NCBI RefSeq assembly: GCF_032050975.1
Contig: NZ_CP116967.1
Location: 1,609,001-1,673,000, forward strand
Length of the DNA stretch: 64,000 nt
Reading direction: 5' to 3'
Origin: Candidatus Nitrospira allomarina
GTDB lineage: Bacteria > Nitrospirota > Nitrospiria > Nitrospirales > UBA8639
Each line of letters opens with the position of its first letter. Position 1 is the stretch's first letter. Position numbers and translations under genes: made by a program. Below are positions 21,900-35,353 of the stretch, piece after piece. Under the pieces are notes generated by a model. It did no database searches. It saw nothing but the letters and a program-made list of their open reading frames with translations, and was not told the DNA's origin.

Positions 21900-22430
21900 T
21901 CAGCCTGTTGGAGCCTCAAATGATGAACAGTGCTGCAGAAGATGGTCGGAGTTAAGCCTCGACTTAGGATCAGCTTGGGCGGATCTCCGACAGAATTCAC
22001 TTTCTGCAACCTCCAGCACGGTGGTGATACCTCGAAGGTTCAGGTCATGGAACAAGCGAAATTGTAGGCAGCAGCGATGGTCAAAAAATAATGTTTCGCA
22101 TCGATGGGGCGGTAGAGAGGCTGCGAGGTGTAGGATACGTCCCAAACGATTGATTGGATCAGTCAAAAAGGGGAGACCAAAAGTCTGAGGAGGACGACAC
22201 CAGGAATTCCCAAGAAACGCGTTGTTCGGTACTAAGGCCGCGAGCATGACCTTTTCTGCATGAAACCGGTTGAGCTGTTGTTCCAGCAACCATGCATCGT
22301 TTTCAGTACAGGCAGGTAAGGAGCAGAGCACAAATTGGGTTCCCTGAAAGGCTGTCAGGGGAAGATACTCCCATCTGCCATTTAGCAAGCATGGGGTTTT
22401 CCACATTGGTGCCCGTGTTCCGATCTTCAT
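21900..22430 (-). CDS. Divergent redoxin (AhpC/TSA-like) protein, copy A
   Basis: The 176-residue protein starts after AGGAGGG and begins MKIGTRAPMWKTP, the usual opening of thioredoxin-fold peroxiredoxins. LCSLPACTEND sits where the peroxidatic cysteine loop would be, and FGLPFLTDPINRLGRIL resembles the late peroxiredoxin core. The canonical P-xxx-T/S-xx-C signature is not intact, so catalysis is uncertain. The C-terminal 35 residues (about 140-176) are variable. It shares layout with copy B at 23544-24080 and has a Fur-box-like site 126 bases upstream. It may be a metal- or oxidant-linked redoxin. Confidence 0.65.
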   Translation of the reverse strand: MKIGTRAPMWKTPCLLNGRWEYLPLTAFQGTQFVLCSLPACTENDAWLLEQQLNRFHAEKVMLAALVPNNAFLGNSWCRPPQTFGLPFLTDPINRLGRILHLAASLPPHRCETLFFDHRCCLQFRLFHDLNLRGITTVLEVAESEFCRRSAQADPKSRLNSDHLLQHCSSFEAPTG

Positions 22431-22555
22431 GCTGTTCCCTCCTTTACAATCAGTAAAAACATTCTGGGTCCGAGTCAATTAGGCATTGCAATGTTGCGTC
22501 CGGACATTCGTGAGCATTCGGGTTGGAGTGCCAAAATTGGATTTTTTATGATTTT

Positions 22556-22574
22556 GATATCAAATATCATTATC
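22556..22574 (-). promoter_or_regulatory. Putative Fur box upstream of redoxin copy A
   Basis: On the - strand this reads GATAATGATATTTGATATC, 15 of 19 matches by eye to the Fur consensus GATAATGATAATCATTATC. It sits in a very AT-rich stretch upstream of the gene at 21900-22430. The rest of the 22431-22846 gap shows no gene. Confidence 0.65.
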
Positions 22575-23543: not shown

Positions 23544-24080
23544 TCAGCAAAGGGTTGGGTTCAGATCCTGTTTGGCAAACATGAAATTGGTGGTAGCAGG
23601 ATTATCGTTTTGTTCTTGAGCAGGCTGAAACGAAAAATTCTGACATTTTTTCAACATGCCCAAAAGGCGGGTCATGCCATGCCAATTGAACAAATGGCTC
23701 CGTCGGTCTCTGATTACTCCCTCTGGGTCAAAGATGAAGGTCTGGCATTGATTAAAGGGAGGTCCACTCCATAAGCCCAGGGCTCGACCTAAACGTTGTG
23801 TTGAGTCAATTAACAAGGGGATGGAAAGGATTTTAATTGTGTGGAGGTGCGATCCGCGAAACAAGTGGGCGGGGTGTTGCATACCCAATAAAAGGGCGCC
23901 CTGTTTTTGGACGGTTCTGCGAAACTGATTGAGAAACACGGCATCGCAAAATTCAAGTTTGGGAGGGCAACACAATATGCCCCATTGTCCTTCTAAGCTC
24001 GCTAGATCCAAATCAATCATATTTCCCTTCAGCAGTGCAGGAACTCTCATGTGTGGCAGGGTGGAATGTCCTATGTTCAT
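23544..24080 (-). CDS. Divergent redoxin (AhpC/TSA-like) protein, copy B
   Basis: The 178-residue protein starts MNIGHSTLPHMRVP eight bases after GGAGG. It has a peroxiredoxin-like layout: ILCCPPKLEFCDAVFLNQF at the place of the active-site loop and helix, IPLLIDSTQRLGRALGLW, and FIFDPEGVIRDRR. It is clearly related to copy A in length and order of blocks but low in identity. The active-site proline-threonine-cysteine signature is not standard. A good Fur-box-like site is about 200 bases upstream. It likely heads the small-gene operon to 22847. Confidence 0.65.
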   Translation of the reverse strand: MNIGHSTLPHMRVPALLKGNMIDLDLASLEGQWGILCCPPKLEFCDAVFLNQFRRTVQKQGALLLGMQHPAHLFRGSHLHTIKILSIPLLIDSTQRLGRALGLWSGPPFNQCQTFIFDPEGVIRDRRSHLFNWHGMTRLLGMLKKCQNFSFQPAQEQNDNPATTNFMFAKQDLNPTLC

Positions 24081-24281
24081 GGGGATAGCCTCCATTGTTT
24101 GTGTCCTCCGACTAAATTTAGGGTTGGGTGCCCCGGAGGAGGAAAAGAGACCCAACCTTTTTGTGTACTGGGTAGTTCGCTCGCCCTGAAACTTTTTTCG
24201 TATGTATGATTGTTTGCGTTCATCGGCATTTTGTCTGGGCTGGATTTCACCGAATGGAAACAGATTGTCGTAATATATAAT

Positions 24282-24300
24282 GATAATGAAAATCATTTAT
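24282..24300 (+). promoter_or_regulatory. Putative Fur box upstream of redoxin copy B
   Basis: GATAATGAAAATCATTTAT matches 15 of 19 positions of the Fur consensus by eye, within an AT-rich promoter-like stretch. It is placed to control the - strand genes 24080-22847 and possibly something divergent on the + strand. Confidence 0.7.
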
Positions 24301-25458: not shown

Positions 25459-27294
25459 TTACTCGTAGTCTTCGTTTAAGGATCGTAGGAATGCCGTTAA
25501 AGCCGGGATGTCCTCTTGAATTAAGGCAATGTTTTTCAGGTGGGAATCACCATTGCGAAGCATGCCCTTTCGCGCTAAATCCGAATTTGTAATATACCCC
25601 TGAATCACATCTTCAAGCGTATCGGCGATACCGGTGTGACTATAGGGAGCCGAATGGCTCAAATCCCGGAGGCCGGGAGTTTTGAAAGCCCCAATAGCTC
25701 TCGGCAGGAGTCGATCTGGTTGACAGGCCCGGAACCCACGAAATACCCCAAAGTGTTCATTGAGGGCGTCCTCGCAAAGGATGGACCAAATTGGGAGCTG
25801 GGATTCGGGGAAATCAGAATTCCAGAAAATGTTCCAAATTCCCAGATCGGTCCATTGGGGGTTGTCTGGCGAGGGAATAGCGCGGAATGGTTCTTGAGCA
25901 TGAGGATGCTTTGCTGTGGCAGGAAGGTAGGCTTCGATATTCTTATTTCGTTGATGCAATCCAGGAATATCCAGTATGGAAAAAGTTCCTGGCCCGTGAA
26001 TTCGTTCATACTCCGTTTGGGCAATTCCCGTGTTGTGAAATCGGAAGTCGGTGAAATTTGGTGGCGTATGACATGCAATGCAATTCCCAATTCCTCCCTG
26101 GGCTTGGTCACTGGGCCGAATGTGACGGCCTTTATGACGATGCTTGTGTCCACCCTGTTGAGCAAAAAATATTTTCAACCCTTGTAGTTCCTGAGGTCCA
26201 AAGGTGAAGGGTTGGTCGTGGAACTGAAACTTGCCATCTGCCGTGTGAGGATTTTTCTCAACAAATCGAAGGGTCGGGCCATCGTGAGAAGATGTTGAGG
26301 GCCATCGGGAATAATCTTGCGGATCGTATGACTCGAGAAATTTAATCTGTTGAAGCAATCGACGAGCATATGAACTGGGAGATTCCCACTTATCGGGTTG
26401 ACGAGGGAAACTGTTGATTTCCAGAAAGACATCATAAGGAGAAAGATTGAATCCTCCCTCGCCATCCTGTGAGAAGAGAAGTTGGTCCGTATAAGCGGCG
26501 ATAAGTTGTGAAACCGCCTGGACAAGTTGTAGGTCGGTGGCTTGAGAAACCTCTATGCGAAAATCTTCAGGGATCAGAAATTCTTGAGGAATAGATGAGT
26601 CGGTTCCGGTGAAAAGAACACGATAGGATAGCCCGCCAAACTCCTGCGCCAGATCTCCGGTTCCCGAGTCTTCTCGAATAATCCTGGCAATATGGGAGAT
26701 GGCGGCTTCCTGCTCGTCGGAAAGCCATCCATAGTTCCGGCCGGTCAGGGTCCCTTTGACCAAATCCACCATGGTCGGAAATTCAGCATCGGCGTGTAGA
26801 AAAAACATTTGTCGAGGGAGAGCAGAATTGACAAGCGGTGGCACGTTTCGAACTGCGGTGGATTTTCCATCTTCCCGGGCTGGAATAGGACTCCGTCGTG
26901 CAAAATCCGAATAGGTATTCATTCCGTAGTTCGGAACATCGAGGAGTTCATCGACAAAATGGCAACTCCGGCAGTTCATAGATTGACCGGCAAACGGGCC
27001 ATCGGCATATTGATCTGGCTGGAGTTGCCAATTCGCCACTTTGTCGAGAGCGGGATCGCCTTGGGGCATGGGATCATTCACATCGCCTCCGTCATCCAGA
27101 AAGATTTTAAATAATTGAGCAAATCGAGTTTCCAGAAACAACCGTTCTCCGTTGGTGACTTCCGGTGGATCAGCTTCTTCGGCCTCCTGAGCTGACACCA
27201 GAGGGACATTGACGGAAAAGGATAGAGTTGATGTGAGTAATGCAATACAAAAGATCTGCACGCAAGAGAATAAAATAAATCGATGGACGTTCAT
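25459..27294 (-). CDS. Di-heme cytochrome c peroxidase/MauG-like exported protein
   Basis: The 611-residue protein starts after GAGGTG and has a signal peptide ending near VSAQEAEE. Two heme sites are seen: CRSCH (about residue 120) and CIACH (about 405). The family end KTPGLRDLSHSAPYSHTG is intact. Such proteins reduce peroxide or oxidise cofactors and partners in the periplasm with two c-type hemes. At 611 residues it is far longer than classical cytochrome c peroxidase (near 330); the extra sequence lies between the hemes. A His/Lys-rich segment (GGHKHRHKGRH) precedes the second heme and may bind metal. It is flanked by iron-regulated genes. Confidence 0.88.
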   Translation of the reverse strand: MNVHRFILFSCVQIFCIALLTSTLSFSVNVPLVSAQEAEEADPPEVTNGERLFLETRFAQLFKIFLDDGGDVNDPMPQGDPALDKVANWQLQPDQYADGPFAGQSMNCRSCHFVDELLDVPNYGMNTYSDFARRSPIPAREDGKSTAVRNVPPLVNSALPRQMFFLHADAEFPTMVDLVKGTLTGRNYGWLSDEQEAAISHIARIIREDSGTGDLAQEFGGLSYRVLFTGTDSSIPQEFLIPEDFRIEVSQATDLQLVQAVSQLIAAYTDQLLFSQDGEGGFNLSPYDVFLEINSFPRQPDKWESPSSYARRLLQQIKFLESYDPQDYSRWPSTSSHDGPTLRFVEKNPHTADGKFQFHDQPFTFGPQELQGLKIFFAQQGGHKHRHKGRHIRPSDQAQGGIGNCIACHTPPNFTDFRFHNTGIAQTEYERIHGPGTFSILDIPGLHQRNKNIEAYLPATAKHPHAQEPFRAIPSPDNPQWTDLGIWNIFWNSDFPESQLPIWSILCEDALNEHFGVFRGFRACQPDRLLPRAIGAFKTPGLRDLSHSAPYSHTGIADTLEDVIQGYITNSDLARKGMLRNGDSHLKNIALIQEDIPALTAFLRSLNEDYE

Positions 27295-27512
27295 GGGTGC
27301 ACCTCGCATTAAAATGAATCCCTCTTCGGAGAAATCCTCCCTGATCTCTCTTTTGGGATAAATTGTGAATGTATCCTCACACGTCATGTGTTGAGGCGGA
27401 GTGAGGCGAGGGGGACAGGAGGAGACCCACCCCCTCGCCCGCATGAGGATGAATAGAAAAGTATTCATCCTCGGGATTTATGAAGAATCAGCCCAATACC
27501 ATCCTTGGACAC

Positions 27513-27764: not shown

Positions 27765-28079
27765 TTATGGTTTTTCAGCCAAAAACCAACCCTTGCTGTT
27801 CATGCATTGTGCCAAGGAATCATCAGTTATTCCTTTGCTGAATGGGTTCAATGAATTCTCGGAATGTACTTCGTTGATCAGGATTTGCCGACATGAGCGC
27901 AGATCATGTTCAAATTCCCCCTCGCCTGCGTCTGGTTTGGCCCAATACAAATCTGGTGCGCAGGCAGAAAGGAATATCGAAAAGAGGCTGATGCCTATCC
28001 ATTTCCCAAAGCCATGATACAAAGGAACCCTTGACCAGGCCCATGTAGGATGTGGAGGAAGAATCTGTTCCTCTTTCAT
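27765..28079 (-). CDS. Small lipoprotein of unknown function
   Basis: The 104-residue protein has a hydrophobic segment ending in a lipobox (IFLSAC, Cys near residue 40). The mature domain has two more cysteines (RSCRQ and AQCMNSKGW). That spacing is often seen in small envelope proteins with a disulfide. The start is uncertain because no clear ribosome binding site precedes it; an internal start nearer the signal peptide is possible. It follows the 4-span membrane protein gene on the same strand and may be in its operon. Confidence 0.6.
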   Translation of the reverse strand: MKEEQILPPHPTWAWSRVPLYHGFGKWIGISLFSIFLSACAPDLYWAKPDAGEGEFEHDLRSCRQILINEVHSENSLNPFSKGITDDSLAQCMNSKGWFLAEKP

Positions 28080-28238
28080 GAATGTATGGCTGTCTGATTC
28101 GATGGAGTGAGAAAATTATTATCGCATTCCATCATAAAATCCAGTAGCCGTTTGAAGCCAACTAGTGGTTGAAATGACCCGCCTCCAGGCATCGGTTCGG
28201 GTAAAGAATCTTCCTCCAATCGAGGAAAATGGCAAAAG

Positions 28239-28751
28239 TTAGTCATCCGACTCCGGCATCATAAAGGCGGATTTTTGCCACCACATTTCATACATGGGTA
28301 TAACGAACATGATGAGAAATCCCACAACCATCAGGATGTCTCCGGTCAACATGGCGATGGTGAAGATTGGGGATACATAGGCAATCAGCCAAGGTGAAAC
28401 CAGATCCAGGGTGACTCCGACAAACGCCATCCATGTCGTAACCACTTTTAGTGTGGGGCTTACCATCGTGAGATAGAGGACATGGACCAAAATCATAAAT
28501 GTGACCGGCATGGTAAACAGATGGAAGTGTGTGGTCTCGGCCAGTTGACCAAACGGCATGGGTTCACCAAAAGTTGCATCCGATCCCCGATAATGTTCGG
28601 CGAGGCCTTTAAGGCTTAACTCCGTCATGCTATGAGCCCAAAAGAAGGTGAAAATGAATCCAGCGAGCATCAGCAGGAGAAACCAGGTATAGACTAAGCG
28701 GATATGTCGGTCGGTATCACGAAGCCGAAAGCGGGCATTAAAATTTCGCAT
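28239..28751 (-). CDS. Four-span inner membrane protein next to the FMN-binding protein
   Basis: The 170-residue protein has about four membrane segments (around 20-42, 75-96, 100-122, 128-155). Histidines occur at membrane-face positions: FFWAHS in segment 1, and HFHLF and LVHVLYL in segment 2, which could ligate heme, though this is only a suggestion. I do not recognise the family. Its start is 17 bases after the FMN-binding gene, so they are probably co-transcribed and act together, perhaps as the membrane electron donor to the flavoprotein. Confidence 0.7.
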   Translation of the reverse strand: MRNFNARFRLRDTDRHIRLVYTWFLLLMLAGFIFTFFWAHSMTELSLKGLAEHYRGSDATFGEPMPFGQLAETTHFHLFTMPVTFMILVHVLYLTMVSPTLKVVTTWMAFVGVTLDLVSPWLIAYVSPIFTIAMLTGDILMVVGFLIMFVIPMYEMWWQKSAFMMPESDD

Positions 28752-28768
28752 TCCATTCTTGCAGGAAG

Positions 28769-29458
28769 TTAGAACCCCAGCAGGGACTCTAAAAAACCTT
28801 TGTTCGCTCGACTGGCTGTATTGATGGGGGGGCTTTGACTCTGGGATTGCAGATAAAGTTCATGGGCCAGGACGAGGGCGCGTTTAACGCCGGCACTCAT
28901 GGATCGCACGGACATGGTGGCGCCGGAAATGTTGATGACATCCCGGTTAATCCGAATGGGGTCGTCAATCGTTTTTCCTTGGTATTGGTAATTAAAGCGT
29001 TTCTTTCCAACTTCGCTCCCCCGTGATTCCCGGTAGACCAATACTTCAACGTTGGTGATTTCTCCATCGGGGTCAACGCCAACCATATAGGTCATCGGCT
29101 TATGCTTACCGATGGTATGTTGGACAAAAGCCCATCCATCGATCCTTCCATTCGTTTCTCCAATATAACAATCAAAGGTCGATTCCGGAAATTGCCATCC
29201 GATTCGCTCTTCGATAATTCGTTTCTGGTTTTCGTTGAGGGTGATGACCTCTAAGCGGATGGAATCGGAATCAGGAAGTGTTAATTTAGCAGCCTCTTCC
29301 GGTGTCAGGTAAACGTCTTCCTGAACCATTTCCTGTGGAGTCAAATACCGCTTCAATTCATTATCCCAGATCTGGTCATTTTCGGCATTGGAGGGTTGAG
29401 GGGCATACGCCAGTAAAAGACTCCCGAAAATAGCGATGTTTAAGATTCGATGAAACAT
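28769..29458 (-). CDS. FMN-binding-domain protein, extracytoplasmic (NqrC/RnfG-type flavinylation motif)
   Basis: The 229-residue protein has an N-terminal signal peptide (IAIFGSLLLAYAPQPSNA) and a C-terminal FMN-binding domain. DGEITNVEVLVYRESRG is followed by SGATMS around residue 180, where the threonine is the expected site of covalent FMN attachment by ApbE. An ApbE homologue is encoded 3.3 kb away. The middle part (about 70-120) resembles the lead-in of similar proteins but has no name. The start overlaps the upstream lipoprotein gene by 20 bases. It likely carries electrons in the periplasm. Confidence 0.87.
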   Translation of the reverse strand: MFHRILNIAIFGSLLLAYAPQPSNAENDQIWDNELKRYLTPQEMVQEDVYLTPEEAAKLTLPDSDSIRLEVITLNENQKRIIEERIGWQFPESTFDCYIGETNGRIDGWAFVQHTIGKHKPMTYMVGVDPDGEITNVEVLVYRESRGSEVGKKRFNYQYQGKTIDDPIRINRDVINISGATMSVRSMSAGVKRALVLAHELYLQSQSQSPPINTASRANKGFLESLLGF

Positions 29459-29931
29459 CCTTCAGCCTCAAGTTTTTCGGTTAAGTTGTTTAAAATGAGA
29501 TTCACGGCTTGTTGTGATGGTTCGACCGGATACCAATCATAAAGCCTGGCGCCCCCACGGAATCCCCAATGTTGCCGCCGTTCGGCAATTTGGAGTCGCA
29601 CGGCATTGGAATCGAGGGGCCTCAGGGTCAGGGTCAGTTGCGATCGCTCCTTGTCCCCCATGCCTTCCCGTTGGAAAAGGCCATACTTAGCGCCTTCCAC
29701 ATATTCCACCCGCCATCCGGTTTCGATCACCCCGTTGGACTTGTCTTTCTTAGTCACGGGATAGGCCCTGAGGGTTTCAAGGGAGGAATTCCATACGGAA
29801 TCAATTGGACAGGCCATGTATCGATCGACAATCATGTCCTGACCGGAAAGGAAAGCGCAGCTCAGAAAAAACATGGGGCATGTAAAAATCGAGATTCCAC
29901 GAATCAGGGAAGAAAAAGAAAGGGTCAACAT
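29440..29931 (-). CDS. Lipoprotein of unknown function, first gene of the FMN operon
   Basis: From the ATG at 29931 the protein has 163 residues with a signal peptide and a likely lipobox (FFLSC, Cys near residue 25). The mature part is mixed alpha/beta with VIETGWRVEY, LTLTLRPLDS and a cysteine near the end. A TTG at 29940 is an alternative start and there is no strong ribosome binding site. It overlaps the FMN-binding gene, and a Fur-box-like site lies about 70 bases upstream. The family is not recognised. Confidence 0.65.
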   Translation of the reverse strand: MLTLSFSSLIRGISIFTCPMFFLSCAFLSGQDMIVDRYMACPIDSVWNSSLETLRAYPVTKKDKSNGVIETGWRVEYVEGAKYGLFQREGMGDKERSQLTLTLRPLDSNAVRLQIAERRQHWGFRGGARLYDWYPVEPSQQAVNLILNNLTEKLEAEGCFIES

Positions 29932-29998
29932 AAAAAACAATATGAGAGAAAGATCGAGATGGATGAATTGAAAAACGAGAATGATTTTCGATTTATTT

Positions 29999-30017
29999 GA
30001 ATATGATTCTCATTATG
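29999..30017 (+). promoter_or_regulatory. Putative Fur box for the FMN-binding operon
   Basis: GAATATGATTCTCATTATG matches 14 of 19 consensus positions by eye; a weaker, half-overlapping site (GAGAATGATTTTCGATTTA) is just before it. It lies upstream of the - strand operon 29931-28239. Confidence 0.65.
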
Positions 30018-30121
30018 ATAAATAATATCGAATTGTATCACCCGATGTTCAAGGCGGTCAACCAGGAAGTTATTGATCTCTGGTCTGATGCGGACCATTT
30101 ATTTCGATACTGGTTAAAAAT

Positions 30122-30162
30122 AAAAAACAGAGAGAAAAGGCTTAGCCTTTTCTCTCTGTTTT
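30122..30162. terminator. Perfect 18-bp bidirectional terminator
   Basis: AAAACAGAGAGAAAAGGC (30124-30141) and its exact complement (30145-30162) surround TTA. A-runs on one side and T-runs on the other allow use in both directions. It lies 25 bases beyond the porin stop and insulates the FMN operon from it. Confidence 0.85.
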
Positions 30163-30186
30163 CCTGTCCCCCCTTAAAGAAAACTC

Positions 30187-31584
30187 TTAGAAATACGTGG
30201 CCATGGATGCCACGAACGCCGTGTCGTGTATACGTTCATTCCCACTTCGACCGACCGGAGTGTATTGGAAGTCGGCTTTAAAGACCGTATCTTCGGTGGG
30301 ACGGAAGTTTAGGCCGAAGGTCCAGCGCTGCCATTCCCCCAATTTCCCGGCTTCGGTGTTATCATTTAAGTCCTGTCCCAGATTCATTTGTTCCCAGCGG
30401 ACTACAGCAGTGAATGTAGAGACCTCCTGTTTGAAGAAGGTGGGGGCCATTCTGGTTAAAAATTCCGGAAGGAAATGGTAATTTCCTTGTATGTAATACC
30501 CTTGCATTCTGCGTGGATTGCCGTTCCGGGTTCCGTCTTGATTGAGGTCATTGTCCTTGACGTAAGCCCACGCACTTTCCCCGATGAGTTCAAATGGGCC
30601 TCGTTGGAAGGTCCAATCCAGAGCCCAAATGGCCAATTGGTCATCCTTATTCGTGCCATAATTCCCGTAAAATCCGGAACCACCAACTTCCACCCCCAAA
30701 ACGGGGCTGAACGCGACACGTCCCATGATGGATTTGCCGTTGTTATTGTCAAAGCTCGTACTATCTGATCTCGCACTGCGTATTCCGTTTGTTTGATTGA
30801 TATTCGACGTGTTATTAGGATTTCCATTCCCTCCAAAGGCATTGGTGAATCCGTTGGTGACGTAGAATTCGTAATCCAGCTTTGAGAGAGCCGTGGGATA
30901 GAATGTGCCGTAGGCTCCAACACCAGGTTGGTGAAGCGTTGTCGGGATAATCCGTTGGTTCACGAGTGGCCGTTCGGTGAGATCACGGAGTGGGGCGTCA
31001 TGCAGGAGATTGAATTTTCCAAGAGGAACCAGGATGATGCCCGCCCGCACATTAAAGGGTTCTTGTACAAGATAGTCGATAGTGGCAAATTCCACCTTTA
31101 TGTCGTTGGTTCCATGCTCGAATTCAATTTCCGCCGCGAATTTCACACGCTCGCTGATGTCCCCGTATATGAAGGGTACCAACCGGTGTTGATCAAAATA
31201 ACTGTTTCCTTGATTGGCCCGGTTGAAGTATTCGATGTCCATGTAACCGCCGACGATGGCCTTGGGAGAAGAGACGAATGGACGGGCATAGATCAGACCT
31301 CCTGACCCTTGCATGGAGGAATCGGCTTTTTGACGCTTCCCTTTAATGGCGCCAAGGTCCTGAAGGTTTTTCCCAGAATCTGGTGGGTCCGGGGCGGTTC
31401 CTGGTTGGGGCATCGGTGGCCTGGCTGCCTCTGGGGTCCCTTGTCCTTGCAGATAGTCTTGGACTGCTTGCCGAACCGCTTCCTGTTGAGCCGGCGTCAG
31501 TGCTTCATCACCTGAAGCGGAGAAGGCCGGAGAAATTGAAAACACAGAGAGGGCCATGAGGACCCCGATTGTGAACTTTTTCAT
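30187..31584 (-). CDS. Outer membrane porin (OprO/OprP-like)
   Basis: The 465-residue protein starts after TAGGAGG and has a signal peptide (VLMALSVFSISPAFSASG). A short helical region (EAVRQAVQDYLQGQG) and a Pro-rich linker follow. The rest is a beta-barrel with many alternating strands ending in aromatic ATYF, as outer membrane proteins require. The barrel resembles the phosphate-selective porin type (FAAEIEFEHG, VRAGIILVPLGKFN), but substrate specificity cannot be read. It lies among iron-regulated genes, divergent from the apbE group. Confidence 0.8.
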   Translation of the reverse strand: MKKFTIGVLMALSVFSISPAFSASGDEALTPAQQEAVRQAVQDYLQGQGTPEAARPPMPQPGTAPDPPDSGKNLQDLGAIKGKRQKADSSMQGSGGLIYARPFVSSPKAIVGGYMDIEYFNRANQGNSYFDQHRLVPFIYGDISERVKFAAEIEFEHGTNDIKVEFATIDYLVQEPFNVRAGIILVPLGKFNLLHDAPLRDLTERPLVNQRIIPTTLHQPGVGAYGTFYPTALSKLDYEFYVTNGFTNAFGGNGNPNNTSNINQTNGIRSARSDSTSFDNNNGKSIMGRVAFSPVLGVEVGGSGFYGNYGTNKDDQLAIWALDWTFQRGPFELIGESAWAYVKDNDLNQDGTRNGNPRRMQGYYIQGNYHFLPEFLTRMAPTFFKQEVSTFTAVVRWEQMNLGQDLNDNTEAGKLGEWQRWTFGLNFRPTEDTVFKADFQYTPVGRSGNERIHDTAFVASMATYF

Positions 31585-31731
31585 GAATGAAAACCTCCTA
31601 ATATAGGATTGGGACGCGGAGGTCCTCAGGAAAAGAGTAGGGGACTCTGGGTCCTCAATGGAAGGAACTCATGAAAAACCGGGAATCGGAGCACACCGCA
31701 TATTCAGGAGCGAAGAGGATCAGCCTCCTCA

Positions 31732-31893
31732 TTAGTCACTCAATACGGTAAAGGGAATGAAAACAAGACGTTTGCAGCGTTTGCATTTCAATTCCACTCC
31801 ATCTTTTTTTAAGATGGCCATCAGTTGCCCGCAATGACAGCGTGCTTCTGAGGTGGTGGTGCATGGAGAAGCTATTTCAGTTCCTTGAGTCAT
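31732..31893 (-). CDS. Com-like zinc-finger microprotein, 53 residues
   Basis: The 53-residue frame contains CHCGQLMAI near residue 19 and CKRCKRLV near residue 37, the two-knuckle layout of the Mu-type Com zinc finger, which in phage Mu acts on mRNA structure to allow translation. The last residues are hydrophobic (VFIPFTVLSD). Translation signals are weak. It sits 147 bases upstream of the porin start on the same strand and just downstream of a Fur-box-like site, so it may precede the porin in one transcript. Confidence 0.6.
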   Translation of the reverse strand: MTQGTEIASPCTTTSEARCHCGQLMAILKKDGVELKCKRCKRLVFIPFTVLSD

Positions 31894-31929
31894 CTTGATG
31901 TTGAATGTAATTATTGTTAATTTTGAAAT

Positions 31930-31944
31930 TGATAACTGTTATTA
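31930..31944. promoter_or_regulatory. Weak Fur-box-like palindrome between divergent genes
   Basis: TGATAACTGTTATTA is a near-perfect 7-1-7 inverted repeat matching the Fur pattern TGATAAT-N-ATTATCA at 11-12 positions. It is between the - strand zinc finger/porin genes and the + strand lipoprotein/apbE genes and could control both. Confidence 0.45.
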
Positions 31945-32058
31945 ATAAGGTCCTTAAATACCCCATGAGTTTGGTTTCTGTCAAGACGGCCCCATTTTTT
32001 TCGTAATTTTTTTTAGTCTGTGTCAGTTTGTGGAGAAGATAGGCGGTATGATGACGGG

Positions 32059-32670
32059 ATGGCCATGCTGAATGTTCGTGCTTGTTTTCTAGCGGTTCTA
32101 GGGTTGCTTGTTGGAATGAGTATGGGATGCGCGTATCAGCTCCCGTCTCATCCTTCTCAAGAAGATCTCACAGAGCCCCTGGTTTTCGGACACATTCACG
32201 TATGGCAGGAAGAGCCATCCGGAAGAATTTATATTCCGGAATTAGCTTCCCTTGAATTGAGTTCCAGGGATGGTCAAAGGCGGTATCGTATCGATATTGA
32301 GGCGTCTTCCTCCTATTTTTTTCTGTCCTTGAAGCCAGGGCGGTATCAAGTGACCCGGGTATTTATTCAGGAAGGCGTATTTCGATCCAGTGCGGAAGTT
32401 CCGTTAACCTTCGAGGTTCCTGACCAGGGAGTGGTGTATCTCGGCGGTTGGCGATTCCAGGTTGACCCTCCGAATTACACAAGAGAGTTAGAGGTAACCA
32501 TTGTCTCCGAATCAGTAAAAGCCATCGTGGAATTGACGGTTCGCTATCCCTCTCTTTCTCCCACTGTGGTCCTGTCCTCCCTGGCGGAACCTTCCCTGTT
32601 ACGGGCACGATTGTTCGAAGTCACGCCCTACCCCAGATTCCGATACTTCAATCGCCATAATTCCACATAA
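32059..32670 (+). CDS. Lipoprotein of unknown function upstream of apbE
   Basis: The 203-residue protein has a signal peptide with lipobox (VGMSMGCAYQ). The mature part is mainly beta, with a block GRYQVTRVFIQEG that resembles small carbohydrate-binding or transthyretin-like folds; the family is not recognised. The ATG at 32059 is chosen because it leaves a normal signal length; ATG 32065 also fits. apbE follows 65 bases later, so the pair probably forms an operon. Confidence 0.65.
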   Translation: MAMLNVRACFLAVLGLLVGMSMGCAYQLPSHPSQEDLTEPLVFGHIHVWQEEPSGRIYIPELASLELSSRDGQRRYRIDIEASSSYFFLSLKPGRYQVTRVFIQEGVFRSSAEVPLTFEVPDQGVVYLGGWRFQVDPPNYTRELEVTIVSESVKAIVELTVRYPSLSPTVVLSSLAEPSLLRARLFEVTPYPRFRYFNRHNST

Positions 32671-32735
32671 ATTCTCTCAAGCGGTATTCCGGCTGGTCTG
32701 TCATCAACGTTATTGTTAAAGATAGGAGATTTACC

Positions 32736-33740
32736 ATGGGGCGACTGCAGAATATCCTTGGACTCTGCTTTTTGATTCTCTTCCTGGCGGGCTGCCAGGG
32801 CACGCCTCACTTGGTGAAGCGCAGTCAGATGCTGATGGGAACCGTGGTGTTTGTCACGGCGGTTGGAGCAGATGAGAGGATTGCGCAGAGGGCGGTTAAA
32901 GCGGGGCTTGATGAAATCCGGCGATTAGAAGAGTTGCTGAGCACCTGGATTCCAACCAGTGAATTATCACAGGTAAATGCTGCGGCGGGACGGGAATCCA
33001 TACAGGTGAGTCAGGAAACCTTTGAAGTCCTCACGCGATCGCTGGAGGTGGCGAAACTCACGCAGGGAGGGTTCAATATCGCCCTTGGTCCGGCGGTGAA
33101 TGCATGGGATGTCAGTCGGGAAGGGCATGTTCCGTCCCAGGAAGATCTGGAAGCGCTTCGCCCGCAAATAGAGTTATCAAACGTGCAATTGGATGAAACA
33201 ACGCGAAGTGTGTGGTTGAGGCGTCCTGGAATGTCCATTGATGTTGGAGGGATCGGGAAAGGGTATGCGGCCGATCTCGCTGCCCGAGTGATGCGTACGG
33301 CAGGCGCGACGGCAGGCGTGGTTGCTTTGTCGGGGGATATTAAGACCTTCGGACGGATGCCGGATACGCAACGCTTCGTGTTTGGTATCCAGCATCCCCG
33401 AAAGGAGCAGGGTCACGTTTTAGGGCGGATTGAGTTGGAAGATGAAGCGGTCTCCACTGCGGGAGATTATCAACGGTATTTTATGAAAGACGGGGTTCGC
33501 TTTCACCATATCCTTGATCCCAAGACCCTTTATCCGGCTCAGGGTTGTCAAAGTGTCACAGTCATAGCCAAGGATGGTGTCATGGCCGATGGGTTGGACA
33601 CCGGCATATTTGTCATGGGTCCTGACCAGGGAATGGCCCTCATTGAGTCTTTGCCGGATGTTGAAGGAGTGATTGTCAATCAGGAAGGCACCGTGTTTGT
33701 CTCATCGGGTCTGAAGAACCGCTTAAGCCTCGAGCCGTAA
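32736..33740 (+). CDS. apbE: FAD:protein FMN transferase, lipoprotein form
   Basis: The 334-residue enzyme attaches FMN from FAD to a threonine of FMN-binding domains outside the cytoplasm. Motifs run in family order: QMLMGTVVFVTA, IDVGGIGKGYAADLAARV, LSGDIKTFG, EAVSTAGDYQRYF, HHILDPKT and ADGLDTGIFVMG. A signal peptide with lipobox (FLAGCQG) places it on a membrane surface. An AGGAG site precedes the ATG. Its likely substrate is the SGATMS protein at 28769-29458. The canonical TG after DPKT is TL here, a small deviation. Confidence 0.92.
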   Translation: MGRLQNILGLCFLILFLAGCQGTPHLVKRSQMLMGTVVFVTAVGADERIAQRAVKAGLDEIRRLEELLSTWIPTSELSQVNAAAGRESIQVSQETFEVLTRSLEVAKLTQGGFNIALGPAVNAWDVSREGHVPSQEDLEALRPQIELSNVQLDETTRSVWLRRPGMSIDVGGIGKGYAADLAARVMRTAGATAGVVALSGDIKTFGRMPDTQRFVFGIQHPRKEQGHVLGRIELEDEAVSTAGDYQRYFMKDGVRFHHILDPKTLYPAQGCQSVTVIAKDGVMADGLDTGIFVMGPDQGMALIESLPDVEGVIVNQEGTVFVSSGLKNRLSLEP

Positions 33741-34807: not shown

Positions 34808-35242
34808 TCAGTCCTTTTGGCAGGTATTGCAAAGACCGTACAGTTCCAGCTTATGAGTTTGAATGATAAAGCCGTTTTTTCTCGCCACCTCTTCTTGTAA
34901 ATTTTCGATTTGGCAATTTTGAAATTCGACTATTTTTCCGCAGGAGGTGCAAATGAGGTGATCATGATGACCCTTATGAGACACATTATCGAATTGCGTT
35001 TGTGAGCCGAAATGGCGTTCCTGTGCCAGGTCGGTTTCACAGAACAATTTGAGCGTGCGATAGATAGTGGCCAGGCCAATATGCGGGTCTTTTTTGGCGA
35101 GGATATGATATAACTGCTCGGCAGTGACATGCTCCATTTTGAGAAAGGTCGTCAGAATTAACTCGCGTTGACGAGTCAGTTTGAGGCTGTTTTTTTGGAG
35201 ATGATTCTTGAGTGTTTCGAGTTCTTTGACCGGTTTAGACAT
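34808..35242 (-). CDS. fur: Ferric uptake regulator Fur
   Basis: The 144-residue protein begins MSKPVKELETLKN. Its winged-helix domain is typical (LKLTRQRELILTTF, IGLATIYRTLKLF). The metal-binding region carries HKGHHDHLIC, the CTSC and CNTC pairs for structural zinc, and His/Glu ligands. Fur represses iron acquisition genes by binding GATAAT-type boxes when loaded with iron. Boxes of this kind occur at 22556, 24282 and 29999. A PerR or Zur role cannot be excluded by sequence alone, but the target sites favour Fur. Confidence 0.9.
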   Translation of the reverse strand: MSKPVKELETLKNHLQKNSLKLTRQRELILTTFLKMEHVTAEQLYHILAKKDPHIGLATIYRTLKLFCETDLAQERHFGSQTQFDNVSHKGHHDHLICTSCGKIVEFQNCQIENLQEEVARKNGFIIQTHKLELYGLCNTCQKD

Positions 35243-35353
35243 GGTGAAATCTTTCGTAAGATGAAGAAGAAATATATTAAACCCCAATCATCCTGGGTAA
35301 TCAAGAATTATTTTTTCTGTTTGGGTGTTGGTAGAGAAATTTAGGGAGTACCT

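Follow-up and report, generated by a model that had tools for sequence, protein, structure and literature searches.

A conserved gene module for a predicted periplasmic flavoprotein, a four-helix membrane protein and a porin in Nitrospirota, with a probable role in Fur-controlled iron assimilation

Gene clusters that combine an extracytosolic ApbE, a flavinylated protein and a membrane partner were described by Meheust et al. (2021, PMC8238504), who distinguished NapH-, MsrQ-, PepSY-, DsbD- and NQR/RNF-like membrane classes; some of these systems were tied to iron assimilation and Fur, and flavinylation-linked iron reduction was proposed. Here we describe a locus of this known kind, flavinylated systems for which iron reduction has been proposed (PMC8238504, PMC11334425), in a 64-kb stretch of the Candidatus Nitrospira allomarina genome (bases 1609001-1673000 of a single contig of 4.55 Mb), hereafter the window. 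Its genes for a flavin mononucleotide (FMN)-binding protein of the FMN_bind family, the flavin transferase ApbE, a four-helix membrane protein that we call TM4, a porin, a small predicted lipoprotein and a Cys4 zinc-ribbon-like protein form, as judged from gene content and order, a conserved module, whose core recurs in several phyla. We read it, with a probability of roughly 0.6, as a Fur-repressed module for reductive iron assimilation.

The locus shares with the systems of Meheust et al. the clustering of ApbE, flavoprotein and membrane partner, but TM4 falls into none of the five classes, having no Pfam or NCBIfam match, and the module adds the porin and the ribbon. The DUF4405/FezC cytochromes are likewise small membrane proteins with conserved histidines, encoded beside apbE or iron-storage genes (Huang et al. 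2024, PMC11334425). DUF4405 is described as having six helices and four central histidines, whereas TM4 has four helices and three invariant histidines; no DUF4405 match was obtained at E values up to 1 for the window proteins or up to 10 for relatives. Assignment of TM4 to DUF4405, PepSY, MsrQ or NapH was rejected for want of any Pfam match. The P19-FTR1-FMN_bind clusters (PMC8238504) place FMN_bind next to FTR1 and iron-uptake genes, as does one relative of our locus (L052), but no P19 was seen here, and FTR1 occurs in some lineages only and not in the genome studied. RnfG and NqrC also contain FMN_bind, with an attachment motif of the same type; the similarity to RnfG is weak (E 1e-7, far below the cut-off), and here a single FMN_bind protein and ApbE go with TM4 and the porin, not with Rnf or Nqr subunits. 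Neither paper's text was found to mention the membrane partner, the porin, the ribbon or so wide a spread of the cluster: 'porin' and 'Nitrospir' have no occurrence in the main text of PMC8238504 (its supplements, which list many clusters, are outside this count), and 'Nitrospir' has none in PMC11334425, again apart from supplements. With TM4, flavinylated electron transfer would gain a new class of membrane partner.

The features concerned are as follows, in window coordinates.

28239-28751, minus strand: TM4, four-helix membrane protein
28769-29458, minus strand: periplasmic FMN_bind protein with a Sec-like signal and an SGAT motif at 28916-28927 (PF04205, E 4.7e-12)
29440-29940, minus strand: small predicted lipoprotein with similarity to DUF3576 (PF12100, E 5.4e-7, over the cut-off)
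29999-30017, no strand assigned: Fur-box-like site (15/19) directly 3' of the promoter-like site
30032-30061, minus strand: promoter-like TTGACC-18-TACAAT with TG ahead of the second hexamer (consensus match alone)
30122-30164, minus strand: strong terminator-like hairpin 3' of the porin gene, with a stem of 20 pairs followed by a T-run
30187-31584, minus strand: outer-membrane porin, 16-strand (AlphaFold and Foldseek)
31732-31893, minus strand: Cys4 zinc-ribbon-like protein of 53 residues, CxC...CxxC, the first gene of the operon (open reading frame)
31925-31949, no strand assigned: Fur-box-like site 5' of the ribbon gene (12-13/19 to the Fur consensus, weak here)
32020-32670, plus strand: predicted lipoprotein 5' of apbE, an accessory of Nitrospirales (homologues at the same place in about 12 Nitrospirales loci)
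32736-33740, plus strand: ApbE, lipoprotein flavin adenine dinucleotide:protein FMN transferase (PF02424, E 7.7e-83; clear lipobox LAGC)
34808-35287, minus strand: Fur-family regulator (PF01475, E 1.4e-35)

A first-pass annotation of this DNA had named an FMN-binding protein with a flavinylation site, an unnamed four-span partner with intramembrane histidines, a porin, a lipoprotein ApbE and a nearby fur gene, and the matches and models listed above bear out each of these: SGAT corresponds to residues 178-181, and TM4 has four predicted helices with H75, H77 and H90 in the second. Its Com-like zinc finger holds as a Cys4 protein, the likeness to Com being weak (PF10122, E 0.025 for an orthologue, below the cut-off). 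The three lipoproteins it counted fared unevenly. In the window, the proteins at 29440 and 32020 have imperfect lipoboxes; good ones are present in orthologues of the former, which is restricted to Nitrospirales and near kin. A third, at 27765, has a homologue in the sister genome alone and was rejected as a core part, as was a MauG-like gene present at a minority of loci.

Conservation was assessed with TM4 as the sole bait: a pattern scan of 84,980 species genomes gave 138 confirmed loci, of which 80 were kept. FMN_bind adjoins TM4 in 79 of them, and in the remaining one (L139) the contig ends 177 bases from TM4; the porin is found in 64/80, ApbE in 55/80 and the ribbon in 34/80, many of the 80 being close relatives and numerous loci without some partners lying on short contigs. 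TM4 homologues are thus not scattered, and the grouping with FMN_bind and ApbE seen in the first-pass annotation recurs. The kept loci are titled Nitrospirota, Methylomirabilota, Dadabacteria, Latescibacterota, Rokubacteria, Planctomycetes, Oligoflexia, Deltaproteobacteria and Nitrospinota, prevalence outside Nitrospirota being counted from this one pattern-limited scan, and metagenome bins may carry a wrong title (L130 is called Nitrospinota but resembles Nitrospirales). Within Nitrospirota, TM4 is present in 109 of 296 genomes, including most of the same order, at 62-98% identity.

Around TM4 in 20 Nitrospirales loci, the porin, lipoprotein, FMN_bind and TM4 genes are co-stranded in 19 (L037 gave no lipoprotein match), the ribbon flanks them in 18 and a divergent ApbE does so in 18. 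More distant Nitrospirota have a compact cluster, with Fur, ribbon, porin, an ApbE::FMN_bind fusion and TM4 co-stranded at several loci in slightly variable order. The ribbon gene is kept between the Fur box and the porin, and heads the operon in many loci; its product may bind RNA or metal. All 16 TM4-positive Nitrospirales genomes tested carry adjacent FMN_bind and ApbE, and the module-type FMN_bind was found in none of the 14 TM4-negative Nitrospirales genomes tested, some of which absences could be due to contig gaps; in G189, a one-contig genome, TM4, FMN_bind and ApbE are all absent. Among these 14, four have a different FMN_bind of 277 residues with its own ApbE, at a distance of about 3 kb where one contig holds both, and two have ApbE alone. 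A second, longer FMN_bind (about 277-290 residues) was seen in G105, G224, G237, G281, G043 and G137; it has an ApbE of its own, which lies at a distance of about 3 kb except in G224, where the two are on different contigs, and the pair is perhaps an Nqr-like system.

No second member of either family (PF04205 and PF02424) was found in the genome, and the FMN_bind protein and ApbE, whose genes are 3.3 kb apart on opposite strands, are therefore very likely substrate and enzyme. The predicted FMN site is T181 (28916-28918), within a motif, [STA]GA[TS], present in nearly all FMN_bind homologues. In several Nitrospirota lineages the two are joined in single frames of about 500 residues (L052-L057, L059, L070 and L079; for example, L052 7127-8668 and L055 5943-7466). 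In these, ApbE comes first and lacks a signal peptide, a twin-arginine-like RRRFL with a hydrophobic stretch follows, and FMN_bind is last; Pfam placed ApbE at 12-285 and FMN_bind at 416-494 of one fusion. The reversed order, FMN_bind::ApbE, was read from sequence and tblastn in L122, L125 and L144. An apparent fusion in L095 was rejected, its upstream portion resembling a wrong-frame GC-rich open reading frame. The occurrence of both orders strongly supports a functional link between ApbE and FMN_bind, and we consider it very likely that the FMN_bind protein would carry attached FMN. The internal twin-arginine-like signal suggests that in the fusions the flavin is loaded before export by the twin-arginine translocation (Tat) pathway. 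Trypanosomatids are reported to have ApbE fused to a target flavoenzyme, fumarate reductase (PMC12052999); the literature passages searched contained no mention of an ApbE-FMN_bind fusion across an internal Tat-like signal.

Fur sites were scored against the 19-base consensus GATAATGATAATCATTATC, which is that of E. coli. At 15/19 or better, the 64-kb window has four overlapping positions, equal to three sites, against 0.175 expected. The two sites given in the first-pass annotation, at 29999 and more weakly near 31930, were both recovered; the latter reaches 15/19 in the orthologous position of the sister genome (L032), and sites at the equivalent place recur across the phylum. The module also keeps its association with such boxes elsewhere: upstream of the ribbon gene the best site had p<=0.05 in 36 of 56 distinct regions and scored >=14 in 31 of 56, compared with 10/104 and 0/104 upstream of TM4 and 5/100 and 2/100 upstream of FMN_bind, where p was obtained from dinucleotide shuffles and the regions are related by descent, hence not an independent-sample test. 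Sites like 29999-30017 lie at the same place in L032, L034, L038, L100, L131, L134, L140 and L145. The succession of terminator, promoter-like site and Fur site ahead of the lipoprotein, FMN_bind and TM4 genes suggests a second Fur-controlled transcript in the genus. We regard iron regulation of the module as highly probable. The Fur-family protein of the window scored best with Fur models, yet below their cut-offs, and its behaviour is possibly PerR-like.

The link to iron is strong. Other Nitrospirota have the Fur gene within the cluster itself, and in many relatives the neighbours include FbpABC-type transporters, FTR1 with cupredoxin, FeoB (L061), bacterioferritin pairs and ExbB-ExbD-TonB; FTR1, cupredoxin, the ATP-binding cassette transporter parts and the binding protein were named by Pfam, and FeoB, TonB, ExbBD and bacterioferritin by reading of the sequences. 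FTR1 was found near the module in L052/L076, L080, L083 and L147. The order in L052 is Fur-cupredoxin-FTR1-ribbon-porin-ApbE::FMN_bind-TM4 (FTR1 E 6e-46, cupredoxin E 4e-31). Nitrospira is a lineage central to nitrite oxidation, and its demand for iron is heavy. Its iron acquisition is poorly described, and a Fur-linked module with a porin, a flavin carrier and an unnamed membrane protein is a direct candidate.

The AlphaFold model of TM4 (mean predicted local distance difference test score, pLDDT, 84.7) has helices at residues 15-43, 67-93, 99-125 and 128-157. G56, E72, H75, H77 and H90 are invariant in all 102 distinct sequences, W121 is conserved in 101 and Y54 in 100. H90 is 13 residues past H77 and 15 past H75 in the same helix, a spacing that resembles that of heme ligands in known b-type cytochromes. 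Bis-histidine hemes would require a dimer, because each TM4 chain has one histidine-bearing helix. A fold search against the PDB gave no significant match: VIA-align Z values, for four-helix bundles and oxidase subunits, went up to 7.9, which is no more than the noise usually seen with helical bundles. The best hit of a profile search of PDB sequences had E 0.31.

A family of longer relatives has helices 2-4 in common with TM4 (hhalign 98.8%, E 1e-16) and a CxxCH heme-c site in the periplasmic loop following helix 1 (L064 6725-7480, L065 6317-7048, L066 6361-7071 and L067 5124-5849). These proteins retain HxH and lose E72 and H90. In L065 and L066 the genes after the long TM4 encode a c-type cytochrome and a porin-like protein with one heme site; in L067 the preceding gene encodes a protein that resembles FMN_bind by eye, has no Pfam match and lacks the attachment motif. 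The TM4 scaffold thus seems, from these arrangements, to work with a flavin carrier in some cases and a heme carrier in others, and the relatives offer a natural comparison of the two on one scaffold. The heme-c insert and the cytochrome neighbours fit a role in electron transfer, and TM4 is probably an electron donor. A bolder proposal, which we hold only tentatively, is that TM4 founds a previously undescribed class of minimal electron donors in the membrane, with four helices, an invariant E-x-x-H-x-H...H and interchangeable carriers (covalent FMN or inserted c-heme), which together with its own porin and flavin transferase would make a self-contained iron-reducing module in several phyla.

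We envisage the following sequence of events. On iron shortage Fur would leave its boxes and the operon would be expressed. ApbE, a periplasmic lipoprotein, would load FMN onto Thr181 of the FMN_bind protein. In the inner membrane, TM4 would draw electrons from menaquinol, or pass them across the membrane via cofactors (probably b-type heme, bound by a dimer) on the invariant histidines, and hand them to this FMN. The reduced protein would in turn reduce ferric iron or ferric chelates admitted by the dedicated 16-strand porin, and the iron released would move inward by the species' own importer, which may be FbpABC, FTR1, FeoB or perhaps ZIP. The interpretation offered in the first-pass annotation is supported. 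The sequences themselves show the order of the genes and its conservation, the relation of ApbE to FMN_bind, the Fur-like sites and the iron genes nearby, whereas FMN attachment, the cofactor of TM4, the electron donor and direction, and the reduction of ferric iron are inferred.

Several points weigh against this scheme. TM4 matched known cytochromes neither by sequence nor by fold. In this genome the Fur-box-like site that precedes the first gene of the operon is weak (12-13/19), the only strong one being at 29999. The transporter most often found nearby, FbpABC, is classed as a ferric importer. Neither FeoB, FTR1 nor Nramp was found in the genome, nor was a close FbpB, so no importer stands out for the reduced iron; one ZIP over the cut-off is the best importer candidate, and the genome also has six TonB receptors, one of them adjoined by a strong FecCD-type permease. 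Among 14 Nitrospirales genomes tested (this one and 13 others), FeoB was found in none, FTR1 in one and Nramp over the cut-off in none. The literature searched had nothing specific on the module in Nitrospira and no expression or biochemical data for the locus.

The strongest alternative, in our view unlikely, is a respiratory or protective periplasmic redox chain, acting for example on peroxide with a MauG-like di-heme protein, which would be iron-regulated only because it spares iron, FMN taking the place of heme cytochromes when iron is low. A MauG/MbnH-like di-heme gene (25459-27468 in the window) follows TM4 in 12 of the 80 loci and keeps this place in a minority of Nitrospirales loci, the cytochrome-bearing TM4 variants suggest interchangeable flavin and heme carriers, and Fur-like sites accompany AhpC/TSA-like genes at 22-24 kb. 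Yet across the 80 loci the di-heme gene is missing from most and was not seen in other phyla, whereas several unrelated types of iron-transport gene are found repeatedly next to the module.

Less probable again, and rather doubtful, is that TM4 is a ferrous-iron channel or permease working through E72, H75, H77 and H90, with FMN_bind reducing ferric iron by electrons from elsewhere. The invariant acid and histidines along a single helix would suit it, as would a genome without FeoB, FTR1, Nramp or close FbpB. However, TM4 has four helices only, the relatives with a heme-c insert retain H75/H77 but lose E72 and H90, and FbpABC, FTR1 or FeoB is already close in many TM4 loci; FMN_bind would also be left without an obvious membrane donor. 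Reversed electron flow, with ferrous iron or some other donor in the periplasm being oxidised by the module to feed the quinone pool, is very improbable: long TM4 variants do adjoin a c-type cytochrome and a porin-like protein with one heme site, the latter perhaps reminiscent of Cyc2, but Fur-type repression implies use at low iron and uptake genes are co-located.

Under the preferred reading, reductive iron assimilation, the porin would admit the ferric substrate. It has no Pfam or NCBIfam match, and its relatives match the Porin_O_P family weakly (E 0.02-0.03, below the cut-off). The AlphaFold model (pLDDT 81.5) shows 16 strands, and the best Foldseek matches are OprO/OprP (4rjw/2o4v; E about 3e-12, 14% identity). 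In the porin alignment, E152, E156 and E165 are invariant and H157 is near-invariant within the barrel; these residues could line the pore and bind cations.

Elsewhere in the window, Fur-box-like sites (15/19) occur at 22556-22574 and 24276-24300, near two related redoxin-like genes (21900-22478 and 23544-24296), the second of which is near the AhpC/TSA cut-off. These genes possibly belong to the same regulon.

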